Below are positions 764-63,927 of a stretch of 64,000 nt of DNA, one piece after another. A model generated the notes under the pieces. That model made no database searches. It saw nothing but the letters and a program-made list of their open reading frames with translations, and was not told the DNA's origin. The stretch covers positions 80,685,422 through 80,749,421 of the forward strand of contig CP142456.1 of NCBI GenBank assembly GCA_038049695.1, in the 5' to 3' direction. Made by a program: the position numbers and the translations under genes. Every line of letters starts with the position of its first letter. The stretch's first letter is position 1. The DNA is from Cinnamomum chago (lineage: Eukaryota; Streptophyta; Magnoliopsida; Laurales; Lauraceae).

Positions 764-1184
764 AAACGGTCTTGGATCTCAACCTAATTTCGCACTCACA
801 AGTCACAATCCTAATGATTAATCGGACCTGTTTGGCTTATAACGAGCTTAATTAGCTAAAAGCATAATTAACTAAGCTAATTACAACCTTGGAATTTCGG
901 GATATTACAAACAACAAGAAGGAAAAAGCAAAAAAAGAAAGCTTGAGGTTCTTCCATCAGTGTTTAGAAAATAACAAAATGAAATCCATATTATGGTGGT
1001 GTTCTTGTTGCATTCAGGAGATTAAAACTGGAGGCAACAATGTTAACAAACTAAACCTTAAAATAAAAACTAAAGATATTTCTAAAAGTATTCTCACACA
1101 AAAGAGAACTTAGAAACAAACCAAACATGTCCATGGGCTTGGAAGAAGCATATAACATAACATAATAATAACAATAAGCTTTAC
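764..1184. other. AT-rich interval downstream of F1
   Basis: No gene seen. The F1 frame ends in a splice donor at 1184, so this interval was searched for the tail exon found downstream of sister copies (a RLSNYxRxLL-like motif behind a CAG acceptor). None is recognisable. Either F1 has lost it, possibly where the organelle-like DNA joined, or it lies beyond the window. Confidence 0.4.
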
Positions 1185-2464
1185 CTCACAGATATGCACA
1201 TGGCAGTGGGAGTGTATCGGAAGAACGTCCACCCACAAGTGCATTTTCCCTTGAGGACTAACTCTAACTCAAACACACCACTCTTCAGATCATATGATAC
1301 AATCCGTTTATATGAATATGATTTAATCCGGCTGGTACTGAGATACTCAGTGAAGAGAACTTTATCACATCCTTGGCAACTCATGTATATAGGTTTGAGA
1401 ATTGGGAACACTCTATTTTTTCTACGCAATGGAAAAAAATCCAAATTCAAATCCAGTACTCCTGTTAGGTCTACATTATGCAGTATCAACCATCGACAGC
1501 TTGTCGTGGACATTTTCCAGACAATCATTCGGTGGCTCCCAGCAGAGCCTACTCGAATGTAGTGCAGATGCCCATCACACTCTATCAACTTGCCATCGTG
1601 TTCTATTGCATCATGATCATCATCATTATCATCAACCTGTTGTTTCTCATCTCTTGGCAGATCCAAATAACCAGAGGCTTCTGTTTCCAAATTGAAAAAG
1701 AGCGCGTGGTCCTTCTTGGAGCACTGCCAATACAAGATTCGGTTGCAATAAACAGCATTTTGGTCTAGTGTGCCACTGCAACGATGGGGCTCGGGGGCCC
1801 TTTGCAGCGTTAACCACCTCCTTACATCAGGTGAGTAGATCTCAAATTCATAATCATAATGATAATGAACCTCGTCTTTGGGAGGAGCTTTACACCTATG
1901 GGCCATCACAATCTTGTACAAGGCTACATTATTGTTGTTGTTGTTGTCCCATGAATGGTTTTCCACGGCGAGTCCACATAGAGAATAATATCTGGAAGAA
2001 ACACGGCTTAAACCTCTTGGTTTTGGAAGAGGAACATACTTTTTGGTCCATGGATTGGAGATGTAGCAGTTGACGAGAAAAGGCGTTTTAAATCCTCCAT
2101 GTAAATAAGCGGAGAAGAACAATCCATTGCAGGAAGACAGAATCCGACTGTCATATGGTCCTTTCTTTGGAAAATCAATACATAAGTCAAGGTCTGAAAT
2201 CTGTAATATTTCTCCTCCTCTTTGGGCTCTTTCCATACACTTGTAGTTGTGTGGATAACAATGAAGACTGGCTGCAACATTGAAGGGGTTTGTGAGGAAG
2301 TAATTGGTTAGAGATTGCCACCGTTTACATACATTACGGCATTGGATAATGGAGTTTAATGGCAATAAACGCAGAATCTCCACCATTAGATCGTCAATCA
2401 GATCCTCGGTTGTGCTTCTTCTCTTCTCCTCTCTTCTCCTTGTTCTTCTTTTCTCCATCTCCAC
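1181..2464 (-). CDS. F-box protein F1 (main exon)
   Basis: A 427-residue open frame. The F-box is near the N-terminus (about residues 18-60) with the core LIDDLMVEILRLLPLNSII followed by CKRWQSL. F-box proteins are substrate adaptors of SCF ubiquitin ligases: the F-box binds SKP1 and the C-terminal part selects targets. The rest resembles the plant F-box-associated region, with recurring motifs SCNGLLFS, ISNPWTKKYVPLP, YEFEIYSPD, AVYCNRILYWQC, LIECDGHLHYI and VSYDLK. Asparagine and aspartate runs (DNNNNNN; DDNDDDHD) are specific to this copy. The last codon and stop read AGG TAA, which is also a good donor (GTGAG|GTAAAG at 1184), so the printed stop may lie in an intron. No matching downstream exon is visible. 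Together with F5 it forms a subfamily apart from F2, F3 and F4. Confidence 0.85.
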   Translation of the reverse strand: MEMEKRRTRRREEKRRSTTEDLIDDLMVEILRLLPLNSIIQCRNVCKRWQSLTNYFLTNPFNVAASLHCYPHNYKCMERAQRGGEILQISDLDLCIDFPKKGPYDSRILSSCNGLFFSAYLHGGFKTPFLVNCYISNPWTKKYVPLPKPRGLSRVSSRYYSLCGLAVENHSWDNNNNNNVALYKIVMAHRCKAPPKDEVHYHYDYEFEIYSPDVRRWLTLQRAPEPHRCSGTLDQNAVYCNRILYWQCSKKDHALFFNLETEASGYLDLPRDEKQQVDDNDDDHDAIEHDGKLIECDGHLHYIRVGSAGSHRMIVWKMSTTSCRWLILHNVDLTGVLDLNLDFFPLRRKNRVFPILKPIYMSCQGCDKVLFTEYLSTSRIKSYSYKRIVSYDLKSGVFELELVLKGKCTCGWTFFRYTPTAMCISVR

Positions 2465-3175
2465 TCAGCTGGAATTGGTTGGTTCATAGAAGTAGTTAAA
2501 AAAAAAAAGTGTGTGAGACTTTTTCCAGAAAGAGAATATACATGTGCATCTATACCTTACCATAAGATGAGAGATACTTAAATAATTGAAAATATTCATA
2601 TGCAAAGAGGAAAAGCCATATATCGTTATATGGAACAACAATAACTTCCAAATTAATTATCAACAACACATAAAGTTGGACTGTTGGAGTCCATTCAAAA
2701 TAGGGGTGGAAGTGGAAACAGCAATATGCTTTTGGTGGGCCACTGCAAAAAGAATTAAAAAAAAAAAAAAAAAATACAGTAGAAGTTTAAATTAAAACTA
2801 TTGGGTTTGGGGACCAAGGCCTACCCATATTCCCCCATAGTTCCAACCCTGGTTCAAATTGACTTAGGGGCAAGGAATTGGAACAGGGTTATAATCTAAC
2901 TGTAAATTAATCATAACATTCAACAATATTGAGAACCATAAAGAAAAACCCAATTAAAAAAAAAAAAAAAGACATATCAAGTGAGAGTTACAGAGATAGA
3001 AAAAAAGATCAAGAGAAAACGAGGGATTAAAAGAGAGATATGTAGAGATACTAAAAAGAAAATCAGTGCTCAAGTTAAACCCCAAATCTTTTTGAGATTT
3101 GGAAGAAAGAGAGAGGGGATGGATGGATCCAGGGTAACATAGAGGAGGTTTCCTTAGATGGATTTAATCAAGTGA
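2465..3175. other. Intergenic spacer upstream of F1
   Basis: No gene seen. The segment is A-rich, with homopurine runs at about 2758-2774 and 2955-2970. It would hold the F1 promoter, but no element stands out enough to name. Confidence 0.4.
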
Positions 3176-3255
3176 AGCATTGGACGATGGTGGTTAGTGG
3201 CAACAAAAGCAGAATCTTCACGGTCAAATCATTGTTCAAATCTTCTATTGTATTG
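3176..3255 (-). pseudogene. F-box gene 5' scrap
   Basis: About 80 bases match the start of the other F-box genes on the minus strand, covering the EDLSNDLTVEILLLLPL region. Compare 11100-11165 in F2 and 60020-60085 in F4. The sequence just upstream in gene orientation (3256-3400) still matches the 5' flanks of F2 and F3, including the GTAGAGTTxAGTGGATTA block and the AAGAATAGCTxAAGTGGGA block. The body of the gene is gone, so this copy keeps a promoter-side flank and a few dozen codons only. Confidence 0.75.
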
Positions 3256-5418: not shown

Positions 5419-5590
5419 CTATGTCTTGAAACACACTAACAAATTTCTAACATAATTAGAAAGCCGCTTGAACTATTTTGACTTTTCCGTCTTAAACTCA
5501 TGTTGCAATTCTGGCCTATCAGTCTTAAACTTATGCTGCCGTTCTGATTCTTCAGCCCTAAACTCATGTTGTAGTTCTTCTGTAATAATC
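5419..5590 (-). pseudogene. F-box tail exon, copy A (orphan, with nonsense codon)
   Basis: A 172-base exon-like segment behind a CCCATGCAG acceptor. In the frame used by the sister copies it reads IITE, then three 11-residue repeats (ELQHEFRAEES, ERQHKFKTDRP, ELQHEFKTEKS), then FKRLSNYVRNLL and a stop. An in-frame TAG replaces the CAG glutamine codon of copy B (KQFKR becomes K-stop-FKR). Its main F-box exon is missing. Intron-like sequence continues to about 5920, then microsatellites and unrelated DNA take over. It is therefore a relic, but it has the largest repeat number. Confidence 0.75.
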
Positions 5591-7920: not shown

Positions 7921-9191
7921 ACCTATATTCTCTATTAAGTTGAATTTGGAGCATATACATTTGGATGTTATCTACGTGGGTGATCAACACACATCATAAA
8001 ATTTGTTGCATCCATACATAGGAACCATTGATCAATAATGGCTTTCTTATCTCATGAATTAACTGTATATTACATCCACAAGAGGTCTATTAACTTATGG
8101 AGCAGATGCTAAAGTCATGAAAGGCATTGGGGCTATTTTTTCTATCTACTTATTTCTCCATCTGGAATGCGAGATGCAAGCGGTTTTTCTCGAAAATCAA
8201 ACTAACGCCTTGCAAATACTTAATTCTGCCATGACAAGCATATCCTTCTCTCTCAAGAGGTTGTAGGGAACCTCCTCCACACATATGTTAAGAAGCTTCT
8301 ATAGTACTCTTAAGATCCAAGAATGATGATTTGATTTGTCTTTTCCTTTTCTTTGCTCCTTCTCCGCTTTCTCTCCTTTGTATTTTAATAGTGCTCTTCT
8401 TTTGGGACTCTTTAGCTTGTATTCTTTTGGAGGGATTTTTCTTAACCCTTTTTCTTGATGACATACTATTGCAACTTAACAAAATAATTATAAAAAGAAA
8501 AAAACAACTTGGTCTCAACATAGGTTATTTATTTGGAAGATAGAGAAAAAGAAATTGTAGGAAAAGATTACTTTATTTACCACTTTAATTCCGTAGAATT
8601 AAGTATTGAGTATAAGCTTTACCTGTAATAAATAGACATATGGGTTATGTGGGTCGTGCAGATTAAACGGGTCAACCTTAACTTTACATGTTTAAATGAG
8701 GGTAAGGAAATCTTGAGCCACAACCAACCCGTATATTGTGCGGTCGGATTGTGCAAATTATACACGGATCGAGTTGGGTCAGGTTGGCTTTTTCCGGCTC
8801 TGAATTTATCTATAATTCTTTCCAACCCAAATCTTCTTTAACGGAAGAGGATTTCGATAAGTTAAGAGCCTTTAATTTGCAGGATAAGTCTTCTCTCCTA
8901 CTTCCAATCAAGTTGGCACCAGATTATGAAAATAAAAGAATATTTGTTCTTATTTGGGAACCCCCTACGTATCACAATAATACAAAAAAAAAAAAAAAAT
9001 TAAAACCAACTTTAAATCCCCTCTAAACCATCAAAATTATTAGGCACGTAGTGATTGAATCCACTAAACCCAGAACACATATCCAATCTATTATAGATCA
9101 AGAGACAACACAAAAATTGCCAGTAGTGAGATTGTAAACTGGTTGGTTTATTCCACCCCATAACAAATCCACAAGAAATTACCACCATAGA

Positions 9192-9276
<85 letters not shown>

Positions 9277-9424
9277 ACTAATTAGTGAATTTCTATCACA
9301 AAAACCTAAAATCTAGACACACCCCAATGGTGGGTGATTCACTTTCAATGCCAGGATCTTTGTACACAAGCATCAAGTCAAATGTTAATCAACATAATTC
9401 CTTATATAAGCCAAATGTCGAGGA
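7921..9424. repeat. F-box cluster spacer (3' flank of F2)
   Basis: Non-coding spacer homologous to 4200-4760 plus 5058-5418 and to 33730-34712. At 8955 it carries the empty version of the SINE site. A block at 8580-8680 (TAGAATTAAGTATTGAGTATAAG) recurs twice at 28740-28890. No gene seen. Confidence 0.6.
9194..9275. repeat. (GA)n microsatellite
   Basis: About 40 uninterrupted GA units. Sister spacers have only short GA runs at the matching place (about 5278 and 34560), so it expanded after duplication. Confidence 0.95.
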
Positions 9425-11192
9425 CTATGACTTGAAACACCCTAATAAATTCCTAGCATAATTAGAAAGCCGCTTGAACTGTTTTGGCTTTTCAGTCTTA
9501 AACTCATGCTGCAGTTCTGACTTTTCAGTATTAAACTCAAGCTGCAGTTCTTCTGCAATAATCCTGCGAAGGGACAAATGCCATTAATAAATGAGAATTC
9601 ACAACAAAAATTGTAGTTTCTGCTCTTTTTTTTTTTTCTCTTTTTTTCTATGGTGCAAGTGCAAACGAACTATATAAAACGAAGAAAGATTACAAGGCTT
9701 CAAAAAACTTAAAAGACTACAAAGGAAAGACCATGCAAAAAGAAAGGGACTATACAAAGCTTAAAAACCAAAGAAGTCAAAACATAGCATAAAAAAAAGG
9801 GCATCCTGCCCAAAAACAAAGGAGTCATGAAACTTGACTGAAGGAGAGAAGAAGCCAAGTAAGAGTTAAATTAAGCATAGGCATAGAAAGCTTGATTAGA
9901 GAAAGTGAAGCATCCTCTTTGATGGCTATATATAATGAAATTGAGGATACATGGCTTTTGAGGCTTCTGTGGACAAACAAGAACTAAGGGAAAAAATTCT
10001 AACGAGAACTAAAAGGGAAAAAATTCTAACAAACCAAAATTACAATGTCATAGTTTGGAAGAGATTACCTCTTGTTAGTAGGAGTGTATCGAAAGATCTC
10101 CCACGTCCTAATAAAGTCTTTATCAATGACTATCTCAAACACATCCCTCTTCAGATCATATGATATAATCCTCTTGAAATTGTCATTGAAGAGAACTTTA
10201 TCATCTCCTTGGCAACTCAATGCAATAGGTTCGAAAATTTGATGGTTTGAACTGTTTTTGTGCGTCTCCAAATATCTCTCCTCTGCTCCGCTTATATCTA
10301 CATCATGCAATATCAACCATTCACCGTTCATCAACATCTTAAAGACACTTAGTCGGCGGCCATAGGAGTATCTTTGAATGTAGTGCAGTTGCCCATCACA
10401 CTCCGTCAACTTGCAGAAGAATGCATAGTCATCGGATATCGGTAGATCCAAATAGCCTGAGGTTTCTGTTTCCAAATTGAACATGAGCGCTTGTCTCGTA
10501 CTAGGGCAGTGCCAATACAGGACCCTGTTGCAATAAACTGCATTTTGGTCTGGCTCACACCAACCAAGATCACGTGGTTTGGAGGCCCACTTAAGCAATT
10601 GCCATGCCCTTTTATCAGATGAGTAGATCTCGAATTGATATGATGCCTTCTTTATGTCTTTTTTGATACTATGGGCTATCACAATCTTGTAAAAAGCGAT
10701 GTTGTTGCAACTTGAATTGACGATTCTGGGGTTGTTTTCAAAGGCGAGTCCACATAAAGAATCATGGCACCTCATGGATGGATTTGGAAGAGGAACACAC
10801 TCTTTGGTCAATGGATTGGAGATGTAACACAGATGAGCCAGAAATATTGTTATAGGGAAAAAATAGGAGAAGAGCAATCCATTGCAACAGAGATGATTCA
10901 GGTAATGGTGTGCTGGAAAATCAATAAAGAAGTCAAGCTCTGAGCTCTGTATTCTTCTTTGGCCTTTTTCAAGGCACGTGTATTTGCAAACACGCTGATG
11001 CCAAATAGGTAAAACATCGACTGTGTCGGTGAGGAACAATGGGCAGCCATTGATCAGAGACTGCCATCGTTTACACACATTCAAGCATTGGATGATGGAG
11101 ATTAGTGGCAGCAAAAGCAGAATCTCTACTGTCAAATCATTGCTCAAATCTTCTATCGTGGTTATTCTTCTCTTTTCTGTCTCCTCCTCCAT
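9425..11192 (-). CDS. F-box protein F2, two exons with a C-terminal repeat tail
   Basis: Main exon 11192-10069, intron 10068-9564 (505 bases), tail exon 9563-9425; the reading frame is kept across the join and predicts 420 residues. The F-box (about residues 12-50) reads IEDLSNDLTVEILLLLPL then CKRWQSLI, the SKP1-binding module of SCF adaptors. F-box-associated motifs follow: CNGLLFS, ISNPLTKECVPLP, YQFEIYSSD, NAVYCNRVLYW, ECDGQLHYIQ, LSCQGDDKVL and SYDLK. If the intron is retained, a stop follows at once, because AGG TAA overlaps the donor AG|GTAATC, giving 375 residues. The tail exon follows a TTCGCAG acceptor and reads IIAE, two 11-residue repeats (ELQLEFNTEKS, ELQHEFKTEKP), then KQFKRLSNYARNLLG. 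This is the only copy with both exons open. CACTA-1 lies 250 bases upstream of the start. Confidence 0.82.
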
Positions 11193-11442: not shown

Positions 11443-12145
11443 CACTACAAGAAGTTGCACTTTTAGCGACGTTTTTTAGCGACGTTTTCTAAAATTCGTT
11501 GGTAAAAGTATATTTTTAGTGACGTTTTTTAAATTCGTCGGTAAATAGTGGATTTTAGCCGACGTTTAAAAAATTCGTCGGCAAAATATGACTTTTTCCA
11601 ACGTTTTATGGAATAACGTCGGTAAAATTGATGTTCGCCGACGTTTTATTTTCGTCGGTAAAATGAGCACGTAAAAAGTAAAAAAAATTTTAAACTTTTG
11701 CCGACGTTTTAAAGACGTCGGTAAAAATCATATTCGCCGACGTTTTCTCGTAAAACGTCGGTAAAATTGATATTCGCCGACGTTTTATTTTCGTCGGTAA
11801 AATGAGCACATAAAAATTAAATTTTTTTTTTAACTTTTGCCGACGTTTTAAAGACGTCGGTAAAAATCATGTTCGCCGACGTTTTATGGGAAAACGTCGG
11901 TAAAATTGATATATGCCGACGTTTTATTTCCGTCGGTAAAATGAGAACTATTTTCGTATAAAGAGGAAAAAATGTTTACACATGTTGCCGACGTTTTAAA
12001 AAACGTCGGTAAAATTTAACTCTACCGACGTTTTATTACTTTGACCGACGATTTGGAAACGTCGGAAAAAAGTCTGAAACATTAATACGGAATTTACCGA
12101 CGTTTTTCTAGAATTTTGGAGACGAAATTTTAACGTCGGTAAAAG
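11443..12145. repeat. CACTA-1 left end and subterminal motif array
   Basis: The terminal inverted repeat is followed by roughly twenty copies of a 10-12 base motif, CCGACGTTTT or its complement AAAACGTCGG, often in face-to-face pairs 10-25 bases apart (CCGACGTTTT-n-AAAACGTCGG). In En/Spm the subterminal motifs bind TNPA and bring the ends together. That role is inferred here. Confidence 0.88.
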
Positions 12146-15750: not shown

Positions 15751-18700
15751 ATGGACAGGAGTTGGATATTACATTATCGGAACCGATTTAGTGCGGAGTA
15801 CATAGCTGGGGTAAACTCATTTATTGATTTTGCAAAGGCGAATTCGGGCGGGGCAGTGTTGATTAACTGCCCGTGTAACGATTGTTGTAACCATCGGAAG
15901 CATGACTATGTAACCGTGAGAAGTCATCTGCACATTAAAGGAATGATGGTCCATTATCTACAGTGGATATATCACGGGGAACCCATAGTTCAACCCGATG
16001 ATTCGGATGAGAGCGATGATGAATCAGAAGATAATCAAGATGAGTACAATGAGTTGATAGATGATCATCGTAGGGGAACTTACTTGGAGGAAGATACTCA
16101 AGAGATGGATGATTTTGAAAATTTGTTGAATGCTTCTCAGCGAGGCCTTTACCCAGGATGCAAAAGCTCCGATACTCTGTTATCGTTTATCATCAAGATA
16201 CTGCACGTGAAGGTAGAAAGTGGGTGTAGCAATAAGTCGTTCGACAAGGTCCTGCAGATTTTTAAGGACTTCTTACCCGAAGGTCATGTGGTGCCGGCAT
16301 CAATTTACGAGGCGAAGAAATTATTGCGTGACTTGGGCATGGGATACAAGAACATAGATGCCTGCAAACACAATTGTGTGTTGTATTGGAAGGAGAATGC
16401 TCAATTGGAAAAATGTCCAGAATGTGAAGAGCCTAGGTACAAGACCAATGATGGCAAGCGAAAGAAGATCCCGCATAAGGTGCTCCGTTACTTCCCATTG
16501 ATACCGAGGTTACGCAGATTGTATATGTCAAGGAAGACAGCCACAGAGATGAGATGGCATAGTGATAAGCGCGTTGACGATGGGATAGCGCGGCATCCGG
16601 CTGATTCAGTGGAATGGAAAGAATTTGATAAGAAATATCCAGAGTTTTCCCAAGAGACACGTAATGTGAGGTTGGGGTTAGCCACTGATGGATTCAATCC
16701 TTTTGGTAACATGAGCACCTCTTATAGCATGTGGCCTGTCATACTTATGCCCTATAATTTGCCACCATGGATGTGCATGAAGGAGCCATTCATGATGATG
16801 TCATTACTTATTCCAGGACCAAACTCACCGGGAAACGATATCGATGTATATCTGAGGCCCTTGGTTGATGAGTTGAAGGAGTTGTGGGATCATGGTGTAT
16901 CTACTTATGATGCCTCCACTAAACAAACATTTCAAATGCATGCAGCTGTGATGTGGACGATAAATGACTTTCCTGCGTATGGTAACTTGTCTGGGTGGAG
17001 TACAAAAGGTTATAACGCATGCCCCTCGTGTAACGACACCTCGTTAGGGGTGAGGTTGAAAGATAAGATTGGGTACATTGGCCATCGAAAATACTTGGAA
17101 GTAAACCACCAATGGCGTAGAAGCAAGGCCTTCAATGGTCAGCCTGAGCGTGAAAAGCTGTCTTTGGATCTACCGGGGCAAAAGGTACTAGACCAGCTCG
17201 AAGAACTACATCCGGTTAGGTTTGGCAAGAATAACAAAAGACCGCGTGAGTCTGGAGAGTTGAATTGGACAAAGAAAAGCATCTTATTTGAATGGCCCTA
17301 CTGGAAGTGCAAAAAACTCCGACACAACCTTGATCCTATGCACATTGAGAAGAACATCTGTGTAGCCTTGGTTGGAACAATGTTGGGCATAAAGGGCAAA
17401 AACAAGGACACCGATAAAGCGCGTAAGGATTTGAAAAATATGGGCATCAGGCCAGAGTTGCATCTAATGGAGAGGGACGATGGATCCAGCTTGAAGCCGC
17501 ATGCCTCTTACACTCTGGCACCAAAAGACAGAGATGGATTTTATGAATTCTTGAAGTCGATCAAATACCCAGACGGCTATGCCGCGAACCTCTCGAGGTG
17601 TGTAACCTCGAAAAATGATAAATTGGCTGGTTTAAAGAGCCATGATTGCCACATCCTTATCCAACGGATCCTTCCTATTGGCATGCGTGGCTTTGTGAAT
17701 AAGGATATGTGTACAACATTGTTTGAGTTAGGCAGCTTTTTCCAAGACCTCTGCTCGAAAACACAGAGGCACGATGATTTGAAAAAATCGGAGGAGCAGA
17801 TAGTTTTAATATTGTGCAAGCTTGAGAGGATATTTCCTCCTGCTTTCTTTGATGTGATGGTTCATCTATCGGTTCACTTGCCGCGCGAGGCCATTCTTGG
17901 TGGACCGGTGCAATATCGGTGGATGTACCCGATTGAAAGGTAATAGTTGATGATCATCGAAAAATTATTTAAATATTAGTGCAATTGCCTTGCATTGGAA
18001 ATCGTAATAGTTATCATTTGTTGTTTAAAGGTTTCTGAAGACCCTAAAGGGGTACGTTCGCAACAGAGCACGTCCTGAAGGTTCAATCGCCGAGGCTTAC
18101 ATTGTCAAAGAGTGTCTCACTTTTTGCTCAATGTATTTAAGGCAAACTGATAGAGTAGAGCGTTATGATGATGGTGGCGAACAGGGTGCGGGGATGTCAA
18201 TCTTCACACAAACTGTCCGTCCCATCGGGCTGATGCAAAGGGCACATGATCCTTCTCAAAGGGAGCGTGACATGGCTCATTGGTTTGTGCTGAATAATTG
18301 CCCCGAAGTGGAGCCGTATCTACAGTATGTGCTTCAATCTAGCCATATTTATGTTTTGCTTGTTAATTCATTTATTCGTACTTATTCATTAAAAGCTATC
18401 TTGAGTAGGGAACACAGGAATTTAGTTCAAGACCAAAGAGGTGGAGACATCGGGCAGATACAACGAAAAGAATTTGCAGAATGGTTCAAACAACGTGTAA
18501 GACATAAAATATTATCATTTTAATAGCTTGATATTATTTGAGTATAAGCTTCAAATAACATTAGTCTAATACATTTGTCTTAATATGTTTATGTAGATGA
18601 ATCAATTGCGAACTATAGGGTCACCAGAAGCTTTTGATGAGATGTGGTCATTAGCAAATGGCCCTAGATCCCTAGTGAATCTTTACCAGGGGTGTGATTG

Positions 18701-19340
18701 CAATTGCGTCCGATACCACACTATAGACCGTGAGAAATGTCGTAGGAGCCAGAGTAGCGGCTTGGTCGTTGAAGGGGAATATGAAGGGGTGAAACATGAC
18801 TACTATGGCTACATCTGCAAAGTTTGGGAATTGTCCTATCGGCACGGGGGTAAGGTGGTCTTATTTGAATGTGAATGGTACAACACTAGTACCAAGCACA
18901 AGATAAACATCGAAGACCATTTTACAAGCATTGATATCACGGGTCGGTGGTGTAAGGATGATCCATTTGTCCTACCAAGTCAGGTGAAACAAGTCTTCTA
19001 CGTCAATGACACCAGCAGAGGGAAAAATTGGAGAGTTGTAGAACGGGTCAAGACTCGGGGAGTATGGGATGTACCCGCTAAGCGGGATGACGACGGTGAT
19101 GATGATGATGTGCCGGTTGATGCATTTCAGCAGGACGAAACGGCATTTGTTGTCCCAGTCCTCGTCGATGGTACTAGTGACCAATTCTCTAGGGGTGATA
19201 TAGATCCTGAGATCGTTCTCAGTGATGAGTCAGCATCAGAGGATGGCCAAGACGAGGATGAAACGCTGGGGGAATACGAAGATGATGAAGGGAATGATGG
19301 TCATAGTCAGGAAGATGATGACATGGAATATGACATGTAG
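15751..19340 (+). CDS. CACTA-1 transposase (tnp2 / TNPD type)
   Basis: Four exons, 15751-17939, 18031-18324, 18409-18496 and 18597-19340, all with GT-AG introns and matching phases, predict 1104 residues, full length for this family. In order: transposase-associated domain (about 5-77, ending WIYHGE); an acidic linker; the tnp2 domain (about 200-560) with TDGFNPFG, LIPGPNSPGNDIDVYL, MWTINDFPAYGNLSGW and HNLDPMHIEKN; a DUF4218-type region closing at YRWMYPIER on the exon 1 edge and running to CPEVEPYL; a DUF4216-type region (about 925 on); and an acidic C-terminus. The protein is the catalytic transposase that cuts and joins the element ends. The start at 15751 (MDRSWI) was chosen over an ATG 15 bases upstream because family proteins begin with this motif. 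No stop interrupts it. Confidence 0.92.
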
Positions 19341-28896: not shown

Positions 28897-29486
28897 ATTT
28901 GCTAAGAGTATCATTATTCAGCCTAAAAGGGATAGTCACCCATCCATGGATAAATATTCATGTATGTATCATGTTCTAACCCAAGTCCCTCAAGCAGGGG
29001 AATGGAATTTTGAGAATGCATCTATTTTGTTTAGTGACTCAGCTTATAATCCCTATTTTCATAACGGTTCTCTTGTTGCTGCAGGAGCTGCCAAAGGACC
29101 AAGAACCTTCTCAGCCAAAGAGACTGAAATAAGGTCGGCTCTTTTTACATTAAAGGAGGTAAGAGGATGCGGGCCTTCGAGAATTATTTTGTGCATGGAT
29201 GCTTTAGAAGTAGTGAAAGCGTTATGATGAATTATTGATTGGAGGATCCAAACGATCATCAGAGATATCAAGGCCTGCAATTATTTTTCTTAGTCTATTA
29301 AAGTTTCTTACATTTCTAGGAAACTTAATATGGTTGCCCCACCATCTTGCCAAATGAGATCAAGCAGTCTCAACTTTCTCTGGGCTAGGGACCCCTATCA
29401 ATTAGGTTAATTTCTATGGGTGGTTTTTTAGGGGGCTTGCTTGTATTTTATCTGATTATTATATATTCTCTTACCAAAAAAAAAAA
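28897..29486 (+). mobile_element. 5'-truncated LINE (RNase H end)
   Basis: The 3' end of a non-LTR retrotransposon. It translates to a plant-type RNase H-like domain fragment (ILFSDSAYNP, then GPRTFSAKETEIRSALFTL and IILCMDALEVVKAL) and ends in GATTATTATATATTCTCTTACC followed by an A run. The same element, longer, sits at 35155-36560, and both end at the same point of the F-box intron. It runs antisense to the F-box gene. Stops and lost residues make it inactive. Confidence 0.75.
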
Positions 29487-29530
29487 TCTAACAAAACAAG
29501 AATTACAATGTGGTAGTTTGGAAGGAGCTG

Positions 29531-30157
29531 TACCTCTTGTTAATAAGAGTAGTGTATCGAAAGAGCTTGTGCATCTGAATAGTCTTTTTCAAGGACTATC
29601 TCAAACACATCCCACATCAGATCATATGATACAATCCGCTGGTGACTGTCACTCAAGAGAACTTTATCATCTCCTTGGCAACTCATTCTATAGGTCTGAA
29701 AATTGGATAGTAAAAATTTCTTTCGTGCATTGGACAAAGATCCAAATATCTCTCCATTGCTCCTTGTAGATCTACATGATGCAATATCGACCAATCACCA
29801 CTCTTCGACATCTTCAAGACACTTAATCGGTCGCGGTAGTTATCGTAGTGTCTTCTAATGTAGTGCAAGTGCCCAGCACACACTATCAACTTGCAGTAGG
29901 TTTCATCATAGTGTGTTGGTAGCTCCAAATAGTCAGAGGTTTCTATTACCAGATTGAACATGAGCGCTTTGCTGATTCCAGGGCAAAGCCAATACAAGAC
30001 TCGGTTAAATTAAACTGCATTTTGGTCTGGCTTAATCGAACTAAGATCATGTGGTTTAGAGGCCATCTTAAGCAATTGCCATCCACTTTTATTAGATGAG
30101 TAGATCTCGAATTGATATGATGCCTTCTTTATGCCTTTTTTGATACTATGGGCCATC
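29531..30157 (-). pseudogene. F3 F-box gene, 3' half
   Basis: C-terminal half of an F-box gene of the F4 type (YWLCPGISKALMFNL, CAGHLHYIRRHYD, MSKSGDWSILHHVDLQGA, SCQGDDKVLLSD). It is broken by an in-frame TAA in place of the tyrosine codon of NAVYxN (about 30006), a one-base deletion at about 29688 and a two-base deletion at about 29580. The donor at its end is AG|GTACAG, so here the frame does not stop at the donor. The 5' half resumes at 32479 beyond the inserted solo LTR. Confidence 0.88.
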
Positions 30158-32478
30158 TGTTACATTACAACCCGAGTTAATCAAGATTAACTCTAATTAA
30201 TCGAGATTTAATGTGGTTTAAACGTGATTAATTAAATTAAGAGTGATTAAGGACTAAAATGGATAAAATTAGGTTCATTTAAGGAATTTAGACATAATCG
30301 AATAAATTGGCAAGAAAGTCACGTGAGTGAGGTGGAATTATACTCAAAGTGATTATATGAAGGAGTTTTTCGTAAATATGAGTGTATACGTATTTCGTCG
30401 AATGAGGTGAAAATTGATGCCATCGTGTGTATCTCGATGAGTACAATAATTTTCATAATATACACATTTTCATTTGACTTAACATGAATCAAATGAGTAG
30501 TGAAGTGACTCAACTTGATAATATGCATAAGACATAGGGTTCATATGCAAAATCCATGAGTTAGGTGTCAAAGTAATATGTTACATGTAGTGAAGTGGCT
30601 TCATTCCAGCAACCTTGAGACAAGTCAGGAGCTTAGGTTTCTTCTTCGTTTCTACGATCAAGTGCTTGAGTGAAGGATAGACTCAAGGAGTTTTCAATCT
30701 GGTTTGATAAGGAAGCATGCTCATCATCTTCTTCATCATTCATCAAGTGGGTTTTTTTAGTTGGTGATTTTGCTTTCTACACTCAAAGAACAAAGGGGTT
30801 GTGTTCAATCACAGTAAAAAGGAAAGTATAAACTCTTGTTATGATTATATGTTAATTGGTTGAGAGTTTCTATAAGTTTGATGATTGTTAGAAATAGATG
30901 TGGGTTAATTATTTAGATGGAATCATGAAATAATTGGATGTTTCTAATGGTTGCATGTTGGAATCGAAGTGTTATTTTATGTTGTATAGTGTTTTAAGAA
31001 GGGAACAGGAGGTTCCAAGGAAGTTTTACAGGTCATGGAGTGAGAGGGAGAAATAGAATTCTGAAACAGAATTCTGCAGCAGATCGAGTGTAGCTCGGTC
31101 GACCGGCCACACAGGGGTGAATCCTTTGGAACAGAGTCTGACGAGAATTTTATTGGGTTTTCATTTTTATGGTCGGTCGACCGACCATGGTCTAGGTCGA
31201 CCAGGCCTTTTGAGAAACTATAAGTTTCACATATTGGAAGTAGACTGCAATCAATAAATACTGAGGGTATTATAAGCTCCATAAATTATTGTATTTGGAT
31301 TAATATTCAAAGGCACTTAGGTGTGAATTAAAAGGAACTCAAGGTTATTCGTAATTCACGTCCAAAACCTAATTCGTAATGCATTGCTCGATTGTACGAA
31401 AGAAACATTATGTCAAGATTTAATGCTGAATACAAGGCTGTTATGGTCTTTATACCTCCATGAGTGTGGATTTAGGGGATTTCAAGCAGGTACCACATCC
31501 CTCTATCTGTAATGTTCATCGAGAATAACATGTATCTTGACCACCTGGGATTACACTTGAATGGATGGTAATAGTCGTTTATGTAATTGTTTATTGACTT
31601 ATCTTCGTTAAATGAAATGAAATGAATCTTTTTGAGGCCTGGGTCATGAATGGTGCGCCCTTCCGCCCTGTGCCAAAACGGAAAATGCTACCAATGTGAA
31701 ATGAATTGAATGGATCAGTGAGTCTGGCACTACATGGTGATTTCTATAAGCTCATTGAGCTGATTCTGCTGCAGCAGATTATTTGGGAGCATTCCGGAGC
31801 TCCGTGGTGATATCAGTTGTCTCTAGCCCGGACGCTGATAAGTCCCACAAGAAATGACTTCTTCCGTATGGAAGAGATAATCCTCTCCTTTGAGGGAGAT
31901 GTAAATGAAATTGAATTGAAATTGAAATGCTATTGTAGTTTGGCAAATAAAGAGACCCATACTGATAATGAGTTGGAATTGGAATTAAACCAATTTAATA
32001 AGATATGAAATGAATTAAATGTATCATTAGCATATTTAATCACGTAATGATTTATACATTGCTGAATTGTGAAATTCATAATGGTATTGATGGCATTACA
32101 GGCACAGCTGCCCTTGCCGGTCATTCTAAGACCACAGCGCTACCGGAGACGTCCGGCGCGGTTTCTCAAAGAGGACTAGTCGAATGGAAATAAAGCAGTA
32201 TCAGTTATAGAAATGGAAATAACTTTGAAATGAGATTGGTTTAAACGTTTCATACTTTTGATCCTTGCATTGTAATTAAATATGCAAGTGATTGGATTGT
32301 AATTAGTGTAAATGAGTTTTGTTTTATACATGAGCAATGTATAAGTTTGTTATTCCGCATAATATATGTAATTGATATCCCTTGTTAATTTTAATGCGTT
32401 GAGATTCACGGGAATAAATATACGATGCGACCCGGTGTTAACTCGGATTAGTTCAAATCTTGGATTCGGGTCGTGTCA
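30158..32478. mobile_element. Solo LTR inserted in F3
   Basis: A 2,321-base segment starting TGTTACATTACAACCCG and ending GGGTCGTGTCA, i.e. TG...CA ends, flanked by the 5-base target duplication CCATC (30153-30157 and 32479-32483). The sister genes read through this site (GGCCATCACAATCTTGTA). No open frame of note and no internal direct repeat were found, so it fits a solo LTR left after recombination, probably of a Ty3/Gypsy-type element. The CAACCCG and GGGTCGTG near its ends resemble those LTRs. It contains a perfect 20-base palindrome at 31169-31188. Confidence 0.8.
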
Positions 32479-33004
32479 CCATCACAATCTTGTAAAGGGC
32501 TATGTTATTGCAACTTGAATTGATGATTCTGGGGTTGTTTTCGAAGGCGAGTCCACATAAAGAATCATGGCACCTCATGGCTAGATTTGAGAGACGAACA
32601 CACTCTTTGATCAATGGATTGGAGGCGTAGCACTCATTGACATCAGCCCTTTCTCTGCTAAAAGAATAGGAGAAGAGCAATCCATTGCATGAGAGACGTT
32701 TCAGGTGAACGCATTGTCTTGGCTTTGGAAAGTCAAAAGCGAAGTCAAGCTCTGAACTCTGCATTCTTCTCTGCCCTTTTTCAAGGCACGTGTATTTGCA
32801 AACAGCATGATGCCAAATAGGGACAACATAGGCTGTGTCGGTGAGGAACAATGAGCAGCCAGCGATCAAAGATTGCCATCGTTTACACACATTGAAGCAT
32901 TGGATGATGGAGGTTAGTGGCAACAAAAGCAGAATCTCCACGGTCAAATCATTGCTCAAATCTTCTATTGTGGTGATTCTTCTCTTCTCTGTCCCCTCCT
33001 CCAT
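32479..33004 (-). pseudogene. F3 F-box gene, 5' half
   Basis: Start codon and first about 175 residues of an F-box protein. The F-box EDLSNDLTVEILLLLPLTS and CKRWQSLI are intact, followed by SCNGLLFS, ASNPLIKECVRL and CHDSLCGLAFENNPRI. It runs into the LTR. N-terminal sequence is almost the same as F4 (MEEGTEKRRITT), marking these two as the closest pair in the cluster. Confidence 0.9.
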
Positions 33005-34712
33005 TCAATAGTGTATTGTATTGATTAGAAGCTAAAAGAAATTGGGCTGGGTCTGTTGTTACTAGTGGATGTGATATTGATGGCATTACTCGTATAAACT
33101 TTTGGAAAGTCCTCCAATAGTAGAATTCTAAAGGAGATTGTTGATGGGTTTAAAATGGACCCCACAAGTTGTTGATGCGATTTCCACTGGTGAAGAAAAT
33201 CTGAGCTAAAAGCCCAAATCTTCTTTTATGGTGATGTACAGGAGAAGAGAGAGATATTGGGAACATACTATTTTGTTCATTGCTTTGATGTGCATTATAA
33301 CTAGTTTTTTTTTTTTTTTTTTTAACCCAACAAAGGGACTGGAACCCAAGAAAGAGTCCAAAAATAGCTCACACAAGCGGAAAGAAGGCCACGCAAGCGA
33401 GAAAGGGGCATTATAACTAATTATTACTTGAAATTAGTCTGTAATAGAAACAATATAAAGAAGAAGCCAACTGAGGAAGCCTTCTACTAACTCCACTCGT
33501 TTTGCTGTAAGGGGATAAAATCTTAGGTTTTCTTTTTTCTTATATTAAAAATCTTCAGAATTGAATTACTACAAGTTCTCTTTGCTTAATTTATTTATAA
33601 TATTAAAAATGATAATTTCAGTTGAAAATTTTTCTTCGTTCCCATCCATTGCAATGGTTTAGCTCTCAATGCTAATGACTTGACCCTAAAAATTTTAAAC
33701 TTGAACATTAAAAATTTTCTTGCATCTTGGAGGAAATGCTCATTTGATTTCTAATGAAACTAATTAGGCATGTGTCAAGGTGGTCAAAACTGTTGGATGT
33801 GGTCAAGACATGTAAAATTTATTGCACCCAAATGAAAATTGCATACATAGAGACCATTGGTCACCGGATTACCATTGATTAATAAAGGCCTCCGCACCTC
33901 ATGAATTAAATGTATATTACAGCCACAAGAGGTCCAATAAAGGGCAATATATTGATTGGTGTTGGTGCATGTGGCCATCCGATAAAGGGTTAGGTCATTT
34001 TGTAAGTACTTGTGAAGGCTGGATTGCATATGGGACCCCACATGTTGCATGTGACCCACCATCAGATGGAGTTTTTGTTTCTATAAAAGATACTTACATA
34101 TTCCACACATTATTACCAACCCAATCTGATTCCCTTCTAAATAGAGTTCCTTCACTCTCCTTGAATGGAGCAAATAAGGTACTCTCAGTTTTTCTTCTCT
34201 TTCCAATAAAAGATTGATTGAAGTCACACCTTATACAATAATTATTTCCAACCCAATCTTTTCAATGGAAGAGAATAGTGGATTTAGGAAAGTCTAATGG
34301 TTTTCAAGCTGCACCTAAGTATCAAAATAAAAAACATTGACTCTTATTTGCATATCCCTCTACTTATCACAATAATATAAGAATCAAACAAAAAACCAAC
34401 TACAAATTCCCTTCAAACCATCAAAATTGTTTGCTTGTGATTGAATGCAGTTAGCCCAGAACACACATCCAATAATCTATCATACATCCCAGTAATGAGA
34501 TTGTAAAGTGATTGGTTTATTCTACCAAGACAATATCCACAAGACATCACCATAGAACATAGAGAGAAAAGGCACTAATTAGTGAAATCCTATCACAAGA
34601 ACCAGAAATATAACTTAACCCCATTGGGGTGATTCACTCTCAAATGCCAAGGGCTTCCTACAAAAGCATCAAATCAAACATGAACCAACAGAACTCCTTA
34701 TCAACCAAATGA
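33005..34712. repeat. F-box cluster spacer between F3 and F4
   Basis: Homologous to 3256-5418 and 7921-9424. It carries the empty SINE site at about 34345. A poly-T run (about 33306-33325) with an adjoining unrelated 90-base stretch may be another small retroposed insert. No gene seen. Confidence 0.5.
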
Positions 34713-34824
34713 TCAGGAAGCTGACTTGAAACACTCTAACAACTTTCTAACGTAACTGGAAAGCTGCTTGAACTGTCTTGACCTTTCGGCCCTGAACTCA
34801 TGGTGCGGTTCTTCTATAACGATC
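34713..34824 (-). pseudogene. F4 tail exon (one repeat unit)
   Basis: Acceptor TTTGCAG, then IVIE, one 11-residue repeat EPHHEFRAERS, RQFKQLSSYVRKLLECFK and a stop, in the frame that matches the donor of the F4 main exon at 36626. The exon itself is open and well formed. It is listed as pseudogene only because the main exon is split by the Copia element. Confidence 0.78.
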
Positions 34825-36625: not shown

Positions 36626-37020
36626 CTCTTGTTTGTCGGAGTGTATCGAAAGAACTTGTGCATATGAATATAGTCTTTTTCAAGGACTACCTCAAACACA
36701 TCCCACTTCAGATCATATGATACAATCCGCCGGCAACTGTCACTTAAGAGAACTTTATCATCTCCTTGGCAACTCATGTCTATAGGTGTGAAAATTGGAA
36801 TGCAAAAATTTCTTTCGGGCATTGGAAAAAGATCCAAATATCTCTCCATTGCTCCTTGTAGATCTACATGATGCAATATCAACCAATCACCACTCTTCGA
36901 CATCTTCAAGAGGCTTAATCGGTCGCAGACGAGGTGGCTATCGTAGTGTCTTCTAATGTAGTGCAAGTGCCCAGCACACACTGTCAACTTGCAGTAGGTT
37001 TCATCATAGTGTGTTGGTAG
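36626..37020 (-). pseudogene. F4 F-box gene, 3' part of main exon
   Basis: Continues F4 in frame from the Copia insertion point: THYDETYCKLTVCAGHLHYI, MSKSGDWLILHHVDLQGAM, MSCQGDDKVLLSD, SYDLKWDVFE, FFRYTPTNKR, then AG|GTAAAG, where the in-frame TAA is part of the donor. No stop or frameshift of its own. The GGTAG at 37016-37020 is the target duplication shared with 59334-59338. Confidence 0.9.
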
Positions 37021-37667: not shown

Positions 37668-40600
37668 TCAAATTCGAGAGATGTTGATCAAGTCCAAACA
37701 GTGCTTGAACTTGACCCCAGTTACAACTTTAGTAAGCATGTCTGCAGGATTATCTGCAGTACCAATCTTCTGAAGGAGAATGTCCCCCTCATCCAAAATT
37801 TCACAAATAAAATGGAAACGAACATCAATATGCTTAGTTCGAGAATGATGAACCTGGTTCTTTGCTAAACAAATTGCGCTCTGACTATCGCAATAGATTT
37901 CAACGTGCTTTTGCACAATCCCCAAGTCCTCAATCAATCCATGTAGCCAAATGGCCTCCTTAATGGCCTTTGTTCCTGCCATGTACTCTGCCTCGGTAGT
38001 AGACAAAGCAACTGTTGATTGCAACATCGACCTCCAACTTACCGGTCCCCTAGAAAGAGTAAAGACATATCCTGTAGTAGACCGGCGTTTATCCAAATCA
38101 CCAGCATAATCCGAATCCACATATCCAACCATATTCTGACCGAGTTTATCATCCCTCTCATACATCAAACAAAGATCCACTGTACCTTGAATGTACCGTA
38201 AGATCCACTTTACCGCTTGTCAGTGTCTTTTCCCTGGATCATGCATGTATCTACTCACCATACTGACAGCATGTGAAATATCTGGCCTGGTACATACCAT
38301 AGCATACATTAAGGCACCAACTGCGTTAGCATACGGAATCTGAGCCATATACTTGCGCTCCTCATCTGTGCGCGGAGACATTTGAGCACTAAGCTTGAAA
38401 TGAGAAGCCAAAGGTGTACTTACAGATTTTGTTTTGCCATCAATGCCAAACCGCTGTAGCACTTTCTTCAAATACTGCGATTGCGACAAACAAAATGTGC
38501 CCTTCACTCTGTCTCTCTTGATTTCCATGCCAAGTATTTTCTTAGCTTCTCCAAGATCCTTCATTTCAAATTCTTTACTCAACTGAGTCTTTAGCCTGCC
38601 AATCTCCACCTTGCTCTTAGATGCAATGAGCATGTCATCAACATATAAGAGCAAATATATGAAGGAACCATCACGAAGCTTACGAAAATATACACAATGA
38701 TCAAAATGGCTTCTTGTGTACTTTTGATCAATCATAAATTGATCAAATCTCTTGTACCACTGTCGTGGAGACTGTTTCAAACCATACAAGGATTTTTTCA
38801 GTTTGCAAACCCAGTTATCTTTGCCAACAACCTTAAAGCCATCTGGTTGAGACATATATATGTCTTCTTCCAAATCACCATGCAAGAAAGCAGTTTTGAC
38901 ATCGAGTTGTGCTAACTCGAGATCAAATTGTGCAACCAAAGCTAGCAAAATCCTGATGGAAGAGTGCTTCACAACTGGAAAAAAAACTTCATTGAAATCT
39001 ATACCTTCCTTTTGCGCGTAGCCTTTAGCCACCAATCTAGCCTTGAATCTCACGCCATCTTGTCCTGGGGAACCATCTTTCTTGGTGTATACCCACTTGC
39101 AGCCAATTGTTTTCTTTCCCTTTGGAAGTTGTGCCAACTCCCAAGTCTGATTTTTATAAAGAGACTCCATCTCCTCATCCATTGCCTTCTTCCACATTGC
39201 GCTTTCTGTACTCCTTAAGGCTTCTTTGTAAGTGAATGGAAGTTCTTCATCAATTATTGGAAGTGCATATGCCACCATGTCAGTAAACCTAACAGGTTTT
39301 CGTATCTCTCTTTTTGATCTGTTGGCTGCAATAGATTCTGGCTGCTGTGGGGACTCTTGAACTGGAGTCTCCTCCTCATCTAAGCCTGAGTCCTCTTCAT
39401 CTGAATCATCTCCAAGACTATCAACTATCTGAACAGTCTTCATTGGAACCACTGGAGCCTCAAACTCCACCTGCTGCAAAGTACTCATTTTTAGACTCTC
39501 CTCCTGAGAGTTCTTTTGCTCCTTTTGCTTTAACATCACAGACTCATCAAAAGTAACATCCCTGCTAAGAATAATTTTATTTGATTTGGGACACCAAAGT
39601 CTATATCCCTTTATACCTGTGCTAAAACCCAAGAATATAACTTTCTTGGCTCTAGGATCTAATTTAGTTTCCTTTACATGAAAATATGCAGGACAACCAA
39701 ATACATGTAAGAAATCATAATCTGTAGCAGGTTTTCCAGACCATACCTCTATGGGAGTTTTTCCATCATTCGCAGTTGCAGGTAATCTGTTGATGAGATG
39801 ATATGCATAAGTCACCGCTTCAGCCCAGAATGCCTTGCCTAATCCAGCATTGGACAACATACATCGAACCTTCTCCAGTAAGGTACGATTCATCCGTTCT
39901 GCCACTCCATTCTGTTGTGGCGTACCTCTTACTGTGAAGTGTCTGACTATCCCTTCATCCTGACATACTAGGTGAAATGGATCAAACGTGTACTCACCAC
40001 CATTGTCTGACCTGAGTCTTTTGATCTTCCTACCAGTCTGAGTCTCTATCATCTTTTTCCACTTAAGGAACACATTCAGGACTTCATCTTTATGCCGCAT
40101 GGTGTACACCCAAACACGCCTGGAGAAATCATCAACAAAGGTTACGAACCAATGTTTACCTCCCAAAGAAGCAGCTTTGGTAGGTCCCCATACATCTGTG
40201 TGAACATAATCCAGAGTTCCTTGAGTACGATGAACCGCTGTGCCAAACTTGACTCTGGTCTGCTTGCCCAAAATACAGTGTTCACAGAATCCAAGTTTCC
40301 CAGTCTTGGCGCCCTTTAACAGTCCTTGCTTCACCAATCTTTGCAAAGCCTTCTCTCCAGCATGCCCTAAGCGCATGTGCCATAGTTTGGAGGTATCAGG
40401 CACATTATCCTCTGAGCTATCACAGACTGCAGCTCTTCCTATGATTGCACTCCCATCTAGGAAATACAAATTTCCTTTTCGAGTGCCCTTCAATACAACA
40501 AGTGCACCAAGTACCACTTTTAGGACTCCACCTTCCATAGTAACCTTAAAACCTTTTGAGTCTAAGGTTCCAAGTGAGATGAGGTTCTTTTTCAAGTCCG

Positions 40601-62334: not shown

Positions 62335-63927
62335 TCAGGATGCTGACTTCCAACGCCCCATTAATAGTTTCCTAGCATAATTAGAAAGTTTCTTTAACTG
62401 TTTTGAAATTTCTCCATGCCTGCAAAGGGACAACCACCATTAACAAATGGAAATTCACAATACAAATTGCAGCAAGATCTAACTATATATATATATGCTA
62501 ATGAAAATCATCATCCCCAAGACCCCAACTACAAACATTGATTCATTTTTAGGGAAGAAAATGATTACATTCAAACTACAATATCATGCAAAAGTTTCCC
62601 CACACCATACATTTGCCTTGTGATCATCATGATCATGTGATAATTACATTCCAACTACAATATCATGGATACTTTTCAAGAGTTTGCTCACACCATACAT
62701 TTGCATTGTGATCATCATGATCACGGGGCTTCCATCCCTTTAGTTGGGGGCATCTAGTAGACCAAGTCCCCTTGGCTGGAAAAAAAAAAAAAAAAAACAG
62801 CCATTACAATAGCATAACTTTACCTCTTAGATATGGATGTTTTAGTAGGAGTGTAACGAAAGAACTTGTGCGGAGAAATGTACCCAGTGTTGACAGTCTC
62901 AAAAACATCCTTCTTCAGTCTTCACATCATATGATACAATATTCCGTTTGGAGTTTTCAAGTAGGAGAACTTTATCATCTCCTTGGCAACTCAAGTCTAT
63001 AGGTTTCATAGATAGAAATAATGTTTTTCCTATCAACAATGGAAAAGTGCCGAGATCTCTCTCCAATGCTCTTTTCAAGTCTGCATTATGCAACATCAAC
63101 CATTCACCGCTCGTAGTAGACATCTTCAACACGTATAGTCGCAAGCAGTCACAGAAAATCTGAATGCAGTGCAATTGCCCATTACACTCCTTCAAAACGC
63201 TTCCACTCAATGCGAATGCATCATACTTTTGAGGCAAATCCAAATAGTCAGAAGTTTTTGTATCCATATTGAACATGAGAGCATGTTTTATGCAACGGCA
63301 CTGCCAATACAAGACCCGGTTGAAATAAACTGCATTTTCCTCTAGCCTGTGCCAACAAAGATGTGGCCTGCAGGGTCTGGAGGCCCTTCCAAGCCTTCCC
63401 CACCTCCTTTTTTCAGATGAGTACATCTCAAATTCATGAAGTGCCTCCCCGGTTAAATAAGGGCCAACCCTATAGGCCATCACAACCTTGTACAAGGCTA
63501 CATTGTTGTTGCTGTTGCTGTTGCTTGAGTCGTTTTCTAAGGAGAGTCCGAAAACAGAATCACTGCACAGCATGGATGGATTTGGAAGACGAACACACTC
63601 TTTGGTCCATGGATTGGAGATGTAGCACTCACCGATATTAGCGCTTCCACTCATGAAATGATAGGAAAAGAGCAATCCATTGCACGAGGAGATATGAAGC
63701 GTGTAATCGCAATATTGCCTTGTTGGAAAGCCAACAGAGAAGTCAAGCTCTGAACTCTGCATTTGACTTTGGCCTTTTTTAAGGCACATAAATTCGTGAT
63801 AAGTAGTAGTTGCAGCATTTACAGTGAATGGGCTGCCACTGATCAGAGATCTCCACCTTTTACAGACATCGTAGCATTGGATGATGGAGTTCAGCGGCAA
63901 CAAAAGCAGAATCTCCATCGTTATATC
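62335..63927 (-). pseudogene. F5 F-box gene, frameshifted and cut near its 5' end
   Basis: Main exon 63927-62824 and tail exon 62419-62335. The F-box is cut: sequence begins at ITMEILLLLPLNSII and CKRWRSLI, the first roughly 15-20 codons being replaced by foreign DNA at 63928. Motifs: SCNGLLFS, ISNPWTKECVRLP, ENDSSNSNSNNNVALYK, AVYFNRVLYWQC, KECNGQLHCIQ, SCQGDDKVLL. A 7-base insertion at about 62913-62926 (CTTCAGTCTTCACATC) shifts the frame after SYDVK; the shifted frame then gives FETVNTGYISPHKFFRYTPT and the donor AG|GTAAAG. The tail exon (acceptor TTTGCAG) has no 11-residue unit: HGEIS, KQLKKLSNYARKLL, stop. Subfamily of F1. Confidence 0.82.
62425..62822 (-). other. F5 intron
   Basis: Intron between the F5 main and tail exons. 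It has a 90-base direct repeat (CACACCATACATTTGCxTTGTGATCATCATGATCA) at about 62600-62640 and 62690-62725. No gene. Confidence 0.5.

Follow-up and report, generated by a model that had tools for sequence, protein, structure and literature searches.

Hidden exon or bystander sequence behind an F-box gene

Does a second coding exon lie hidden downstream of F-box genes whose stop codon coincides with a splice donor, or does the DNA found there never enter an F-box transcript? The question arose in the window, by which we mean the whole analysed stretch of 64,000 nucleotides (C6:80685422-80749421) in the 1.06 Gb genome of Cinnamomum chago, where tandem F-box genes lie on the minus strand. The F2 gene is an intact 375-codon ORF (11192-10065, minus strand), and its product scored above the Pfam cut-offs for both the F-box (PF00646; 30.1 bits, cut-off 20.5) and the At3g26010-like beta-propeller (PF24750; 50.2 bits, cut-off 25). 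The TAA stop overlaps a donor, AG/GTAATC (the slash marks the exon border), and the parts of F2 with the candidate downstream exon are as follows.

10069..11192, minus strand: F-box exon of F2, with 374 full codons and two further bases (ORF list, Pfam)
9564..10068, minus strand: F2 candidate intron, 505 bases, GTAATC...CCCTTCGCAG
9425..9563, minus strand: F2 tail exon, 45 residues up to a TAG whose last base is 9425; shortened copy of exon 2 from a DUF639 gene on C8
9481..9551, minus strand: in-frame repeat of 33 bases within the F2 tail, in 2.2 copies
9329..9424, minus strand: homology to DUF639 exon 2 past the F2 tail stop (tblastn 9541-9329; nhmmer)

The candidate intron is T-rich, with about 67% A+T (measured over 503 of its 505 bases), and the tail exon starts at 9563 with GCAG/GATTATT. 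Splicing of 10069 to 9563 would create one continuous frame of 420 residues, which gains 45 residues and ends RYTPTNKR-IIAEELQLEFNTEKSELQHEFKTEKPKQFKRLSNYARNLLGCFKS. The 33-base (11-codon) unit is present twice in F2, three times in the relic copy A, once in F4 and not at all in F5, as counted by reading and, for F2, also by repeat analysis. A pure (AG)40 microsatellite occupies 9194-9274, 150 bases beyond the F2 tail stop, and was not seen there in the other four copies.

The window also contains several mobile elements and repeats. CACTA-type transposase genes (tnp2, PF02992) lie at 15751-17943 and 46017-47441, the first of them also with PF13963 and PF13960 and followed by PF13952 at 18597-19340, and ORFs of the Ty1/copia type occupy 37668-41426 on the minus strand (RVT_2, integrase and gag_pre-integrs in 38220-40700), upstream of the F4 fragment. 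Just upstream of F2, at 11460-12000, copies of a short palindromic motif (about 'ACCGACG...AAAACGTCGGC') form an array that includes a tandem unit of 139 bases and presumably resembles the subterminal repeat of a CACTA element. An isolated 77-base piece at 3175-3251 is 88% identical to the start of the F2 F-box exon.

The tail exon derives from a DUF639 gene

A genome search with the F2 tail returned six matches, namely F2, A (in two pieces), F4, F7 and a place on C8, and missed F5; the C8 exon was the sole match outside C6 and was weak when taken alone (E=0.37). A profile of the five C6 modules that carry the exon, described below, matched this C8 gene (L015) at 1469-1723 with E=3.4e-38 and 121.9 bits, and the match was limited to exon 2 (start 1485; end, by reading, about 1719) and its splice sites. 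Three further DUF639-like places, which an exon 2 query detected at 49-53% identity, reached 12.5, 10.3 and 2.6 bits against the module profile. Exon 1 of the C8 gene (MESGLSIFETFMRQNSFK...) ends TCC AG/GTACTA, exon 2 starts G/ATT CTC CAG and reads ILQVSTEDLQHGFEAEMSQKLKEPSNYARNLLEYCSYKALHVETKRPDHLADKEFHKLTFDMMLAWEAPGVESESPSK, and the exons are open as far as read. Two later exons, when joined, matched DUF639 (PF04842) with 65.1 bits at profile positions 1-79 of 231 (cut-off 37.1), a single exon alone remaining below the cut-off with 31.5 bits, and neither the tail itself nor the joined parent exons 2-4 matched PF04842 or any other Pfam family.

The intron phase is 2 in the C8 parent exon and in the copies. 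All five copies share a 23-base deletion relative to the parent, which shifts the frame and brings a stop codon shortly downstream: F4, F5 and F7 have a TGA there, F2 and A a TAG located two codons before that position. Homology to the parent exon continues past the tail stop. We set aside the capture of a larger part of the parent gene, for whose exons 1 and 3-7 no credible match turned up, either in the window with 10 kb on each side or in the 20 kb around F7 (best E 0.037); within the module, the parent introns and other parent exons are unrecognisable.

Judged by these matches, the tail was copied from exon 2 of a DUF639 gene and is foreign to the F-box family. The "hidden second exon" of the original prediction is thus a real exon by origin, its acceptor looks usable and in F2 it fits in frame, but it belongs by descent to a DUF639 gene and not to the F-box family. 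The ready-made acceptor and the open tail frame would be explained by inheritance from the captured exon.

Copies of the exon differ in what they could encode

The further copies and relatives in the window are listed below; a fifth copy of the exon, F7, lies on C6 about 260 kb away, downstream of an F-box gene (L038/L017) at C6:80428727-80429902.

36626..36997, minus strand: F4, a 3' fragment of an F-box exon with the end AAGAG/GTAAAG (sequence comparison)
34713..34824, minus strand: F4 tail exon, IVIEEPHHEFRAERSRQFKQLSSYVRKLLECFKSAS and then a stop
62824..63918, minus strand: F5 F-box exon, frameshifted near its 3' end (ORF list, alignment)
62335..62419, minus strand: F5 tail exon, HGEISKQLKKLSNYARKLLMGRWKSAS and then a stop
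5419..5590, minus strand: tail exon of relic A, interrupted by an in-frame TAG and lacking a neighbouring F-box exon
1181..2458, minus strand: F1, an intact F-box gene with an AGGTAA end (ORF list)

The junctions proposed for F2 (10069/9563), F4 (36626/34824) and F5 (62824/62419) each pair an AG/GTAA donor with a CCCTT(T/C)GCAG acceptor in phase 2, and the open tail that follows carries a KQxKxLSxYxRxLL core; however, F4 retains only the 3' piece of its F-box exon and F5 is frameshifted. Frames ending at a TAA within the donor had been claimed for F1, F2, F4 and F5; the F5 ORF ends early (KTEEGCF and then a stop, at 62899) and the donor is reached in a different frame. Relic A had been counted as a fitting copy and does not behave as one: a TAG interrupts the frame within the core, the neighbouring DNA holds no F-box exon, and a phase other than 2 gives the longest reading (51 residues, versus 39 in phase 2). 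Only two of the five exon copies (F2 and F7) have an intact F-box ORF in front, and three of the five cannot encode a full chimeric protein. Four of the five tails are free of an internal stop.

Neither blastn nor tblastn found a tail for F1 in the 10 kb beyond the window's left edge, and the match of F1 to PF03478 was just under the cut-off (26.5 vs 27.4 bits). F3 (29480-33081), another F-box gene, is interrupted by about 2.3 kb (32478-30158) and is related to sequence beyond that edge (L018; 72-74% alike); by reading, F3 and F4 share a similar insertion just after the donor. The F7 F-box ORF lacks the TAA stop, having TAT instead, and runs into a TA microsatellite unless spliced.

The exon lies in a duplicated module that was not always inherited with the F-box gene

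All-against-all blastn and alignment placed the tail exon in a longer duplicated segment.

8872..9981, minus strand: duplicated module, common in part to A, F4, F5 and F7; ends approximate, the start being nearer 9900 (F2 coordinates) in F7 and A

A genome search that skipped very common words gave nine matches of the module at five loci, all on C6, and we therefore rejected its classification as a widespread repeat within the scope of that search. Likewise, no further tail was detected in the family loci L030-L059 including their 1.5-kb flanks, nor elsewhere by a genome search skipping common words.

Comparison of the divergence of the F-box exon (dS) with that of the module revealed compatible values, with overlapping intervals, for F2-F4 (dS 0.23, module 0.23) and F2-F5 (dS 0.49, module 0.35). 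For F7-F2, on the other hand, the F-box exon gave a dS of 0.61 (0.46-0.78) and the module a divergence of 0.23 (0.19-0.29). The F7 F-box exon clusters with L032 at a moderate ultrafast bootstrap of 85 (dS 0.25) and shares with it a 3' flank (72% over 796 columns), after which the tail exon appears only 3.8 kb downstream of the donor. These divergences indicate that the exon at F7 and the F-box gene ahead of it, a member of another lineage, were inherited separately. The F7 F-box exon may have undergone gene conversion, but the shared flank favours plain descent.

Since the F-box gene and the exon at F7 differ in history, the in-frame fit there would most simply be an accident of phase, with a chance of one in three. 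This bears on the argument that the frame fits in every copy and would not survive by chance, which we find weak: the copies are related by duplication, so their agreement does not amount to several independent observations, and the acceptor and the openness of the frame were inherited.

Tests of selection on the tail

Across the ten pairs of copies, tail identity was mostly within the range of the flanking segments. The tail was more alike than every flanking segment in one pair (F2-F7; 86% vs 76-84%) and less alike than every one in two (F2-F4 and F4-F7), and the part of the exon past the stop was at least as alike as the tail in seven of the ten. Apart from the F2-F7 pair, which favours an established coding exon, these values are in keeping with an inert remnant.

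The original prediction had named dN/dS over the tail exon as a check, and constraint did not emerge from it. A codon model gave an omega of 0.67 (LR 1.59, not significant; omega 0.70 without F5 and 0.69 with A, F2 and F4 only), even though relic A's stop was coded as missing data and kappa was held constant under the null model, two settings that tip the test towards constraint. This value is indistinguishable from those of 18 non-coding control windows of 28 codons, which overlap one another and exclude F5 (omega 0.60-1.95, LR up to 1.8). Pairwise tail dN/dS ranged from 0.27 in A-F2, which would suit a selected exon, to 1.35 in F2-F7 and 1.78 in F5-F7, which would not.

The main signal favouring constraint came from the phase of indels among the copies: all six in the tail were multiples of three, compared with 6 of 25 in the flanks (p=0.0013). 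Few of these events are truly independent, because two 33-base indels share one unit and the F5 and F7 gaps overlap; with four independent tail events the test gave p=0.0088. We regard this as a hint of preservation, against which stands the shared 23-base deletion that broke the parent frame before the copies parted. The selection tests have little power because each copy offers about 25-55 codons. The F-box exon 1 is itself only weakly constrained (dN/dS 0.56-0.78 for F2 against seven relatives compared; 1.20 between F2 and the F4 fragment). Overall, the evidence of coding constraint on the tail is weak.

The donor is a general feature of the family end

All 18 family ends examined have GT after the last codon, be a tail present or not, a count that is partly built in since the ends were located by a GTA pattern; the 18 ends comprise 16 loci, selected from 40 matches for reaching the C-terminus, plus F3 and F5. 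AG/GTAA was exact in 14 of them, the variants being F7 (GTATGC), F3 (GTACAG), L034 (GTAGAA) and L047 (AA/GTAA), and in L034 and L045 a TAG lies ahead of the GT. The third base was equally invariant in 32 of 54 comparable two-fold codon columns. Because tail-less members share the donor and so many columns are invariant, conservation of the GT is ordinary for the age of the family and is no evidence for splicing, and we discarded the donor as evidence for the tail. A family-wide ancestral second exon was rejected as well, the downstream blocks of L032, L033, L035, L037, L041, F1 and F7 being indel-rich and non-coding in appearance.

Discussion

The origin of the exon, its phase and the structure of its copies are results of the comparisons above, and on these grounds a captured DUF639 exon very probably adjoins F-box genes in the C6 tandem array. 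We propose that exon 2 of a C8-like DUF639 gene, or a larger gene copy in which only that exon is still recognisable, landed downstream of an F-box gene of the array, and that an early 23-base deletion shifted its frame so that all copies would stop soon after. The family end, ...AG/GTAA, resembles a splice donor and has a phase equal to that of the captured acceptor, so a transcript continuing past the F-box stop could be joined to the exon in frame. Duplications in the array would then have spread the F-box/exon pair (F2, F4 and F5) and also the exon without its original F-box partner (A and F7).

Transcription, splicing and any function are what we infer from this arrangement. Since the shared module starts roughly 90-170 bases after the F-box stop of F2, its transcripts may well run into the module, and some in-frame splicing is plausible because of the good-consensus donor, the T-rich 505-base intron and the parent's own acceptor. 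F2 would be expected to yield chiefly the short protein that stops at TAA, perhaps with a minor spliced isoform bearing a 45-residue charged tail. The captured exon likely gives at most a low-level chimeric isoform. In our judgement the existence of any such spliced isoform falls somewhat short of an even chance, and a selected function for it is improbable.

An account that shares the captured origin and differs on splicing only is that the exon is a decaying DUF639 piece beside the F-box genes, never part of an F-box mRNA, with TAA as the only end in use. We give it an even chance. It accords with the general lack of excess conservation over the flanks, the omega values, the post-stop identity and the GT end of tail-less members, and with the F7 exon, which was not co-inherited and lies behind the F-box gene's own 3' flank. 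The frame-keeping indels, the four tails free of stops and the plausible read-through in F2 speak against it.

That selection instead maintains the tail as an established coding exon of F2 and F7, making a functional two-exon F-box gene, is unlikely. The splice sites are good, the fit is in frame and the indels keep phase, and F7 has lost the TAA (GTATGC) while retaining an intact F-box ORF and an in-frame tail; the overall omega is nevertheless not significant, the two parts of F7 have different histories, and the search of L030-L059 with their flanks, like the genome search skipping common words, gave no further tail. An ancestral F-box exon lost from other members can be dismissed as highly improbable, since, despite the donor-like GT at every end examined, the exon is DUF639 by descent, the conservation of the donor G is ordinary and the downstream sequence common to seven members looks non-coding.

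A more speculative extension of the captured-exon reading, which we consider improbable, would make the combined stop and donor of F2, and perhaps of F7, a switch: unspliced transcripts would give the plain F-box protein, spliced ones would carry a DUF639-derived repeat tail that alters binding partners, and tandem duplication would be testing tails of 0 to 3 repeats.

The locus offers a concrete case of a tandem F-box array that gained a foreign exon beside a stop codon already resembling a splice donor. It illustrates how, with no selection at work, a "hidden exon" can come to fit in frame: acceptor and open frame arrive with the captured exon, and the phase fit is a one-in-three accident; frame agreement among related copies is therefore not proof of use. 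If spliced, F2 would be a young chimeric gene caught early.

With respect to known systems, exon 1 of F2 is an ordinary member of the F-box/At3g26010-like beta-propeller proteins (PF00646, PF24750), whereas the tail is not part of that family. The tail is homologous to exon 2 of a gene for a DUF639 protein (PF04842), but this exon falls outside the Pfam-defined domain and the C6 copies are frameshifted. The titles and abstract openings surveyed, a scope outside which subscription papers and preprints fall, contained no report of an F-box/DUF639 fusion; three papers mention both DUF639 and F-box, and none announces such a fusion in its title. The capture adds one more example to a familiar type of event. 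Gene fusions are described as frequent in Oryza, where likewise pieces of two unrelated genes are joined after duplication, with one possible new transcript; that account includes RNA-seq and selection evidence, whereas the F-box/DUF639 pair is a candidate fusion in genomic sequence (PMC9199173). In Caenorhabditis, HTH-bearing F-box genes are described as a multicopy F-box family that similarly gained a segment from another source, there a transposase piece reported to be needed for function, in contrast to the truncated plant DUF639 exon captured in the C6 array (PMC12062965).
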